Assembly: GCA_026419455.1 (NCBI GenBank) | Contig: JANZZJ010000261.1 | Location: 1-43,311, forward strand | Length of the DNA stretch: 43,311 bases | From: Candidatus Sumerlaeaceae bacterium | Lineage (GTDB): Bacteria; Sumerlaeota; Sumerlaeia; Sumerlaeales; Sumerlaeaceae | Reading direction: 5' to 3' | In this document: positions 15,139 to 17,923 of the stretch, one piece after another | Layout: every line of letters begins with the position of its first letter | How positions within the stretch are numbered: position 1 is the stretch's first letter | Made by a program: the position numbers and the translations under genes | The notes under the pieces: generated by a model | The model's input: the letters and a program-made list of their open reading frames with translations, nothing else | Told to the model about the DNA's origin: nothing | The model's database searches: none

Positions 15139-16221
15139 GTGCCGACAATCAGCAACAAACAGAAGACCTTAGGCGGCAAACGAGAACGGGAAAATGCGGT
15201 TACGCGCCTGTTGACCGTTGTGTGTGCGCTGGCAAGCAAGAAAGGCGGGCTCACCTATGCGGAGATCCAAGATTACCTTGCGAGAGCCAATCATAAAGTT
15301 AGTCGCCGAACCATCGAACGCGACATTGATACACTGATGCGCTTTTGGGAGATTGAACGTGTTCGAAAAGGAACGACGGTGCGATGGAAGCTTCTGGGGC
15401 CGATTGAAAGTGAGCTTCCTTTTCCGCTCGAGACCCTGGAACTCTTCGCGCTAACCATCGCATATCAGGCGCTTGCGGTAAGTGATTTGCGGTGGCTAGC
15501 TCCGTACCTAAAGAATCTCGTTGCACGCCTGCGGCCAGAATTTTCGCGTTCGTATCAGAAATTTTTCGATTTTTTGGAAAATAAGTTTACCAATGCCACA
15601 ATAGCCACCCCCAATCCGCCCGGATGTTGCGGCCGTTACGACTCCCTTATGGAAGCCATCATACAGCGCCGCCGGGTGATTATAAGTTATCGTGACAGCA
15701 AAGACCAGTTAACAAAGAATCGTGAGATAGCGCCGCTTCTTATTGTTCATGAGCGTGGAGGAACATACCTAGCAGCGCACTGCTTTCGAAGAAATGGACA
15801 TCGACTATTTCGTCTCTCGCGCATCCAAAATCTCGAGGTAACGGACAAAACATTCGACGATGGGCTGCTTGAGGGACTTAAAGAAAAACTTGGGACATCG
15901 CTCGGCGCGTTCCATGCTGAACCCGAGAAAGTAGTCGTCGAAGTTGATAAATTGTTAGCTCGGTATCTTGAGGAAAATCCCATCCATCGCAGCCAGACTT
16001 TGAAAAAAGAGAAGGGTCGTTATTACGTGCACCTTTTCGTCGGTCTTAATGAAACCCTTTTCCACCAATTGATGGGATTTGGTCCCCACGCACGCGTCAT
16101 CGAACCTCAGAAACTGGCCAGCCTGCTTCTCGAGCGACATCGAGAAGCACTGGAGTACCAAACTGGCGTCATTACGGAAAACAGGATCCAGCCTGATTTG
16201 CCACTAAGTTACAAGGACTGA
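15139..16221 (+). CDS. HTH-WYL domain transcriptional regulator
   Basis: N-terminal HTH (SRRTIERDIDTL), WYL-like middle domain (IIQRRRVIISYRDSKDQ...REIAPLLIVHERGGTYLAAHC...RLFRLSRI). Confidence 0.88.
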   Translation: MPTISNKQKTLGGKRERENAVTRLLTVVCALASKKGGLTYAEIQDYLARANHKVSRRTIERDIDTLMRFWEIERVRKGTTVRWKLLGPIESELPFPLETLELFALTIAYQALAVSDLRWLAPYLKNLVARLRPEFSRSYQKFFDFLENKFTNATIATPNPPGCCGRYDSLMEAIIQRRRVIISYRDSKDQLTKNREIAPLLIVHERGGTYLAAHCFRRNGHRLFRLSRIQNLEVTDKTFDDGLLEGLKEKLGTSLGAFHAEPEKVVVEVDKLLARYLEENPIHRSQTLKKEKGRYYVHLFVGLNETLFHQLMGFGPHARVIEPQKLASLLLERHREALEYQTGVITENRIQPDLPLSYKD

Positions 16222-16265: not shown

Positions 16266-16455
16266 GTATGACCTAAACTGTCGGATGCCCGGCAACCCAT
16301 AATGGTACATTATCGCGTAAGACATCTGCGGCTAGTACGCTTTATGGCAAGTTCTAGCCAGGAGAAAACAAGTCCCGAGAAGGAGACGGGGAGAGGAAAA
16401 CGGGGCAGGGGGGAAAAGAGAGGCGCCGACTGGGGGGACGGCGCCTCTCGCGTTT
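16266..16455 (+). ncRNA. Putative small RNA unit 1 (tandem family)
   Basis: Shares 21-nt GTATGACCTAAACTGTCGGAT, TAAGACA, GGCT/AGCC hairpin, GACGGGGAG..GAAAAC and an identical 11-bp terminal stem with the unit at 16512. Confidence 0.55.
16418..16455 (+). terminator. Terminal hairpin of tandem unit 1
   Basis: GAGAGGCGCCG ... CGGCGCCTCTC perfect 11-bp stem, followed by GCGTTTTC. Confidence 0.7.
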
Positions 16456-16511
16456 TCACGGCAGTGGGTCCGAGTTGCAATACACGATTCTTACGGAACT
16501 ACGAAAACGAT

Positions 16512-16700
16512 GTATGACCTAAACTGTCGGATACTCGGGATGAAGCAACAGTATAGCTAAGACAAACGCGTGCAGTTTTGGCTTCACCGACAAGCCACAT
16601 CCTGCCAAATAAGAGTCAGGGGCGAGTTGGGAACAGTAAAGACGGGGAGGAGAAAACGAGAGGCGCCGGCTGGGGAGGAGGACGGCGCCTCTCTCTTTTT
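16512..16700 (+). ncRNA. Putative small RNA unit 2 (tandem family)
   Basis: Second copy of the same architecture; TAAGACA-to-stem distance is 100 nt in both copies. Confidence 0.55.
16658..16699 (+). terminator. Intrinsic terminator of tandem unit 2
   Basis: Same 11-bp stem GAGAGGCGCCG/CGGCGCCTCTC followed by TCTTTTT. Confidence 0.85.
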
Positions 16701-16798
16701 GCACAGGACGAAAAGCACAGCTGTGCGGTGTAGGCTTAGAGAGCAATTTAACCAAATTTTTCTTTACCGCCATCGCCACAGCCCCCAGAACAGCCAGC

Positions 16799-17923
16799 AT
16801 GCGAGTGGCACTAGTCCATGATTGGCTCAACGGGATGCGGGGGGGAGAAAAGGTTTTTGAAGTGCTTTGCGAACTTTATCCCCAAGCTGACGTGTTCACC
16901 CTGTTTTTCGAACCCAGGCGCGTGTCGCCGATCATCCGAGCGATGAAAGTTCACGAATGGTGGGCTGCCCGTCGCATTCCCTTTGCACGTCGCTACTACA
17001 GATGGTTTCTACCATTTTTTCCGAGGGCAGTCGAACATTTTTCTATTACGGGATATGATCTCGTCATTTCGACGTCACATTGTGTTGCTAAAGGGATTTG
17101 TCCCCGCCCTGAGAGCACAGTCCATATCTGTTATTGTTTCACCCCCATGCGCTATTTGTGGGATAAATTCGACGACTACTTTGGAAACCCGTGGCACTTC
17201 AGCTCATGGGTTATGCGAGCGTTGCGCGAACCGCTAAGGCGCTGGGATGTAGAAACGGCGTCCCGGGTGACGCATTTTCTTGCGCCGTCGGAATACGTGC
17301 GGGAGCGAATACGGCGGCATTATATGCGTGATGCTGTTGTCATTCCGCCCCCTGTGGACTGGGGAAGGTACTCGGTGGTCGAAAGGGTTCCTGCGGATTT
17401 CTTCTTGGTCGTTTCAGCCCTTGAACCGTATAAGCGTGTGGATATTGCCATCGAAGCCTGCAATCGGCTCAAAGTACCTCTGAAAATTGTCGGCACCGGC
17501 ACGCAAGAGAAGCGCCTTCGGCGACTTGCGGGGCCCACGATCGAATTCCTCGGTTGGGTTTCTGACACTCAGTTGGCAGCATTGTATTCGTGTGCGCGAG
17601 CACTGCTATTTCCATCGGATGAGGATTTCGGTATTGTGCCCGTGGAGGCCATGGCGTCGGGTTGTCCGGTGATTGCATTCCGCAAAGGTGGAGCCTTAGA
17701 GACTGTTGTTGAGGGGCACACGGGGATTTTTTTCGACGAGCAGACACCTGACTCGCTCATAGTTGCCATGCAACAAATGGAAACTTTCCAGTTTGATGAA
17801 GAGTTCGGGAGACGTCATGCACAGCGATTTGCGCGCGAAACGTTCATGGCCCGACTGCGCGAAGCGATAGAGAAACTGGCAGGACTATCGTCGGGATCTT
17901 TTCGGGCTGTGAAAAACGACTGA
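16799..17923 (+). CDS. Glycosyltransferase family 4 (GT-B)
   Basis: MRVALVHDWLNGMRGGEKVFEVLCELYP, VSALEPYKRVDIAIEACNRL, FPSDEDFGIVPVEAMASGCPVIAF. Confidence 0.93.
   Translation: MRVALVHDWLNGMRGGEKVFEVLCELYPQADVFTLFFEPRRVSPIIRAMKVHEWWAARRIPFARRYYRWFLPFFPRAVEHFSITGYDLVISTSHCVAKGICPRPESTVHICYCFTPMRYLWDKFDDYFGNPWHFSSWVMRALREPLRRWDVETASRVTHFLAPSEYVRERIRRHYMRDAVVIPPPVDWGRYSVVERVPADFFLVVSALEPYKRVDIAIEACNRLKVPLKIVGTGTQEKRLRRLAGPTIEFLGWVSDTQLAALYSCARALLFPSDEDFGIVPVEAMASGCPVIAFRKGGALETVVEGHTGIFFDEQTPDSLIVAMQQMETFQFDEEFGRRHAQRFARETFMARLREAIEKLAGLSSGSFRAVKND

Follow-up and report, generated by a model that had tools for sequence, protein, structure and literature searches.

Tandem putative small-RNA genes with DriD-type operators next to a WYL regulator gene in Candidatus Sumerlaeota

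Two units of ~190 nt, alike at their ends and different in the middle, sit between a gene for a WYL-domain regulator and a GT4 glycosyltransferase gene in a metagenome-assembled genome (MAG) of Candidatus Sumerlaeota (BRC1). The locus raises the question of what these units encode and by what they might be controlled. The window, i.e. the whole stretch of 43,311 nt of DNA analysed, belongs to an assembly that is 80% complete (G000), and the assemblies compared with it are mostly MAGs. The gene order in the window is MacB-like permease, OEP, HlyD, ABC ATPase, WYL, units, GT4 and GlgC.

Reading and alignment of the sequence bore out the organization proposed in the earlier note. Both units open with the identical 21-mer GTATGACCTAAACTGTCGGAT, an exact repeat whose copies are 246 bp apart, which is far beyond chance. 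They continue with TAAGACA (16318 in unit 1, 16558 in unit 2) and a hairpin, formed by GGCTAG..CTAGCC in unit 1 and by TGGCTT..AAGCCA in unit 2, and they end with the same 11-bp stem GAGAGGCGCCG/CGGCGCCTCTC (16418-16428/16439-16449 and 16658-16668/16683-16693). The distance from TAAGACA to the stem is 100 nt in both, as the intervening 3-nt gaps cancel out in the alignment. Unlike the identical starts and terminator stems, the middles of the units have diverged. The motif GACGGGGAG..GAAAAC, previously described as another shared component, is indeed present in both units but out of register, its distance to the stem being 33 nt in unit 1 and 17 nt in unit 2. Terminator stems are more stable than those of shuffled sequences (Table 1), and the stability of the bodies, measured from operator to terminator, is no better than in shuffles (z -0.5 and -0.7).

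Table 1. Coordinates of the units and flanking genes in the window
Feature	Position	Strand	Basis or remark
WYL-WCX regulator gene, DriD-like	15139..16221	+	Pfam WYL + WCX; profile match to DriD; PADLOC models; proposed operator binder
Operator 1, pseudo-palindrome GTATGAC-CTAAACT-GTCGGAT	16266..16286	+	sequence; DriD consensus (PMC12340889, excerpts)
Possible -10 of unit 1, CATAAT (weak)	16298..16303	+	13 bp after the 17-bp operator core
Unit 1, putative non-coding body	16287..16417	+	hairpin 16330-16359; GGGGCAGGGGGG at 16402-16413
Unit 1, predicted terminator: 11-bp stem, loop, only GCGTTTT as tail	16418..16456	+	z -4.8 vs shuffles
Operator 2, same as operator 1	16512..16532	+	sequence
Possible -10 of unit 2, TATAGC	16552-16557	+	sequence
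Unit 2, putative non-coding body	16533..16657	+	hairpin 16579-16597
Unit 2, predicted terminator: 11-bp stem as in unit 1, then TCTTTTT	16658..16700	+	z -3.8 vs shuffles
GT4 glycosyltransferase gene	16799..17923	+	flanking gene, judged independent of the units

Known identities were searched for at several levels. No further copies of the units were found in the window's assembly (80% complete), and a mobile or dispersed repeat was rejected on this ground. The Rfam scan gave no family at or above the gathering threshold. Neither of the two identities that could have spoken against a new RNA, a known mobile repeat and an Rfam family, thus came to light in this assembly and in Rfam. The BLASTN search suggested in the earlier note as a way to homologues, run against 97 relatives, phages and plasmids, returned none, and relatives of the units were disclosed by synteny instead.

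The order WYL, unit, GT4 recurs in G001 (QZM1.54, a genus-mate of the window organism) and in G005, with one heavily diverged unit in the same gap of each. In both neighbourhoods gene sizes and order match those in the window, and a protein search confirmed the identity of WYL and GT4. In all four units, two in the window and one each in G001 and G005, the palindrome is followed after 39-47 nt by a hairpin and further on by a strong terminator that has a T-run (z -3.8 to -5.9 vs shuffles). The motif GGGCAGGGG stands just 5' of the terminator in three of the four, being missing from the second window copy, and its shared length was reached in none of 5000 shuffles. Unit bodies barely align between species, and only that of G001 folds better than shuffles. 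What is kept is the layout, operator, G-tract and terminator position, not the sequence. A fixed plan with bodies too diverged to align suggests a fast-evolving RNA locus rather than a sequence-conserved RNA. In this form the description of the units as terminator-ended intergenic RNAs is upheld: they look like non-coding transcription units that lack an Rfam match and have counterparts by synteny in two other species.

By its sequence, the 21-mer is an operator, a pseudo-palindrome of the form (A/G)TATGAC-N7-GTCGNAT that closely resembles the operator published for DriD. DriD is a WYL activator switched on by ssDNA that binds ATACGAC-N7-GTCGTAT overlapping the -35 element (PMC12340889, cited here, like the other papers below, from excerpts). 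Window operators fit 11 of the 14 specified positions of the DriD consensus. The best fit within the ~190 kb examined, 12 of 14, is shown by a site in the helicase/GNAT region of the same assembly. This site is also identical in 16 of 21 positions to the DriD site in the promoter of Caulobacter CCNA_03891. Sites in G001 and G005 keep the GAC-N7-GTC core and fit only 7-9 of the 14 positions. The operators of their units, GTGACAGTCCTTGTCAC in G001 and GTGTGACCTACTTTGTCACAC in G005, are located at the same place as the window 21-mer.

The regulator encoded next to the units agrees with this assignment. It carries WYL and WCX domains according to Pfam, and its profile matches DriD (8tp8) over the full length with an E value of 2.8e-20, covering DriD residues 16-340, the HTH included. 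It thus has the DriD-type architecture, in which the wHTH, linker bundle, WYL and WCX are combined in one chain. Matches were also obtained to PADLOC models of CRISPR-associated WYL proteins and to the N-terminal part of a Cas3c model. The full-length alignment with DriD and the fit of the operator to its site are the grounds on which we read the units as putative WYL-operated RNA genes.

To follow the distribution of the operator, its pattern was built from five sites, of which two belong to the window units, two are in G005 and one is the helicase/GNAT site of G000. Seven exact matches were found in eight genomes of the family, while ~0.2 would be expected by chance according to our own estimate; when two mismatches are allowed, counts do not exceed those of a reversed-pattern control. 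Two of the exact matches come from outside the pattern-building set, one upstream of cas8e in G000, where it precedes the Cse1 gene of a type I-E system, and the other 109 bp upstream of the WYL gene in G003. In G005, a copy of its own RNA operator, identical in 16 of 17 positions, lies immediately 5' of the type I-C cas3 (cas3c). G001, which was left out of pattern building, served as a further test genome. In this genome, GTGACAACCTTTGTCAT is found in the pyrH/cas8e region and GCGACAATCCTTGTCATGGGTTGTG in the helicase/GNAT region; they are identical to its own RNA operator in 13 and 14 of 17 positions, respectively. We estimated at ~0.004 the chance that an intergenic region of this length contains a 13/17 match. 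Within the 86 kb of G001 that were examined, 13-14/17 is reached at three more places, two of them selected because they match the palindrome. These data from G000, G001 and G005 indicate that each species has its own version of the operator at the RNA gene, a type I cas operon and the helicase/GNAT region. The cas genes behind it are cas8e, cas8e and cas3c. TATGAC, formerly considered a possible -10 element, is not supported as such and forms half of a DriD-type operator, which is met again at cas and helicase/GNAT regions. In the window, no operator was found in front of the operon of the WYL gene.

Several other matches were treated as chance. Most of the exact GTGAC-N7-GTCAC matches whose surroundings were inspected lie inside genes. 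One site in G005 a single mismatch away from the operator pattern (G005:C1:2681583, L169 ~19582) falls inside a CRISPR spacer, and the one-mismatch matches G002:C3:157353 and G006:C130:70304 are within long open frames.

Concerning promoter elements, a TA dinucleotide follows the operator core by 10 bp at four sites, those of the RNA genes of G001 and G005, the G005 cas3c and G003. Window units have no -10-like TA at this spacing, and their candidate hexamers are listed in Table 1. A promoter of the PafBC type was first considered for TTGTC..N8..TA and was dropped in favour of the palindromic DriD site.

Taken as WYL-operated RNA genes co-regulated with cas, an interpretation that we regard as probable on sequence grounds, the units would represent two tandem paralogous small-RNA genes, each comprised of its own DriD-type WYL operator, a non-coding body of ~125-130 nt and an intrinsic terminator. 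The neighbouring WYL-WCX protein would most likely be the one that binds the 21-mer. Through ssDNA sensing like that of DriD, the RNAs would be turned on together with the type I CRISPR-cas operon and the helicase/GNAT region. Activation rather than repression, the ssDNA signal and the target of the RNA are proposed by analogy with DriD and PafBC (PMC11804915), and for activation of the window regulator by ssDNA the chances appear evenly balanced. Since the same switch stands before a CRISPR-Cas operon and near a helicase gene, the RNAs appear to belong to a common damage/defence response. Within it they would, in their most likely mode, act in trans, a regulatory role that we put forward tentatively, at somewhat below even chances.

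Proximity to the regulator gene in three species would also fit an RNA that is itself the ligand or titrator of the WYL protein. WYL domains have an Sm/Hfq-like nucleic-acid-binding fold, and an RNA ligand has been suggested for it (PMC6789036), and the regulator might therefore be bound by the purine- and G-rich tract in a feedback loop. This tract, located before the terminator, is strongest in the window units, but in G005 it is not unusual, and the ligand demonstrated for DriD and PafBC is ssDNA (PMC12340889, PMC11804915). We consider such a role unlikely, and give the same low weight to the combined scheme in which a DriD-type ssDNA response drives CRISPR-Cas in Sumerlaeota while the adjacent RNA serves as feedback ligand of the WYL regulator. 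Units might instead be attenuated leaders of the GT4-GlgC operon, mostly terminated and with conditional read-through into GT4, in accordance with their position, which in three species is on the same strand as GT4 and directly 5' of it. A leader is made quite unlikely by the serial arrangement in the window, where either unit is complete and has an operator and a strong terminator to itself, and by a motif that GT4 has of its own. This TTTTCTTTACC-like motif is located directly 5' of the GT4 start (~16755-16768 in the window), is conserved in four genomes (window, L006, L007, L008), and is likely the gene's own promoter region. It precedes GT4 also in G006, although that genome has no unit.

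The apparent co-regulation with cas operons of type I in three species brings to mind RNAs of the CreR or scaRNA kind, which would act like guides and by which the cas operon would be repressed or tuned. Nothing in the units resembles the I-E repeat ATCGTCCCCACGCGCGTGGGGGTGAACC, and their match to the cas promoter is no better than in shuffles, which leaves a guide of this type unsupported and very improbable. Even less credible is that the units encode small proteins. Unit 1 contains an ATG frame of 71 codons and the G001 unit one of 35 codons preceded by GGGG, but the former runs through the terminator, the frames are dissimilar on inspection, and the G005 unit is without any frame of at least 18 codons. 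Several GGA motifs, noticed by eye in the window units, would suit sponge RNAs for CsrA/RsmA. As CsrA (PF02599) was not found in any of the eight genomes of the family, which are incomplete assemblies, while control genomes were positive, a sponge is excluded in this Sumerlaeota family as far as the assemblies go, and its probability is negligible.

The preferred reading, WYL-operated RNA genes co-regulated with cas, can be compared with several described systems. With the DriD regulon of Caulobacter crescentus the locus shares the operator half-site, the N7 spacer and full-length homology of the regulator. Targets described in the excerpts of that source are protein genes (didA, bapE, recJ, dnaG and others; PMC12340889), in contrast to the RNA gene, cas operons and helicase/GNAT region found here, and outer half-site positions differ from the DriD site in G001 and G005. 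PafBC of mycobacteria is likewise an ssDNA-activated WYL regulator with profile homology to the window protein (PMC6789036, PMC11804915), but it is a heterodimer that recognizes a non-palindromic -26 motif (PMC6789036), whereas the sites studied here are palindromic. A link between WYL proteins and defence through inverted repeats, as in our case, is known from BrxR, CapW and Sll7009, the last a repressor of a CRISPR locus of type I-D (as cited in PMC9122601). Their operators are different, and no RNA gene is among the targets described in the excerpts of that paper. Like CreR, the units would be small RNAs tied to cas expression, but they lack a repeat-like handle and a cas-promoter match.

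In the literature searched, no paper joins Sumerlaeota and small RNA, and the titles and abstracts retrieved mentioned neither cas operons controlled by DriD nor an RNA gene under a DriD-type operator. Many WYL regulators exist, often in the vicinity of CRISPR or other defence genes, and few of their operators and ligands are known. Here, an operator defined by sequence links a DriD-like regulator with cas operons of types I-E and I-C, a helicase/GNAT region and a small-RNA gene in three species. If the proposed scheme is true, CRISPR immunity would be under the control of ssDNA sensing, independently of LexA and with an RNA branch. The defined operator makes testing in vitro directly possible.

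Some additional observations concern the regions inspected. In G005 (L169, G005:C1:2662001-2682000), cas9 and a cas operon of type I-C diverge from one operator-bearing intergenic region, and a Cas1 fragment is located between them at 2675103-2675255. The cas8e gene of G000 is apparently shortened (L166 14934-16880, G000:C236), with a 267-aa N-terminal part of Cse1 followed by a 378-aa frame that has only a weak match to Cas11e, at the contig end. In G003, the operator upstream of the WYL gene is faced by an orphan frame of 276 aa for which no family was matched (L170 6599-7426, G003:C27). Another, well conserved terminator-ended element, CTGTC..GACAGTTTCCATAACCTCCTAACCTCAAGAT(A/T)AGGCC, was observed upstream of GT4 in G004 (L010 ~1315-1395) and G002 (L011, reverse strand), two genomes without the WYL-GT4 pair. 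It has no match in Rfam and is probably another unnamed RNA. Finally, the window contains a T-box leader (RF00230) at 1183-1426, scored at 103.6 bits, in a diderm phylum.
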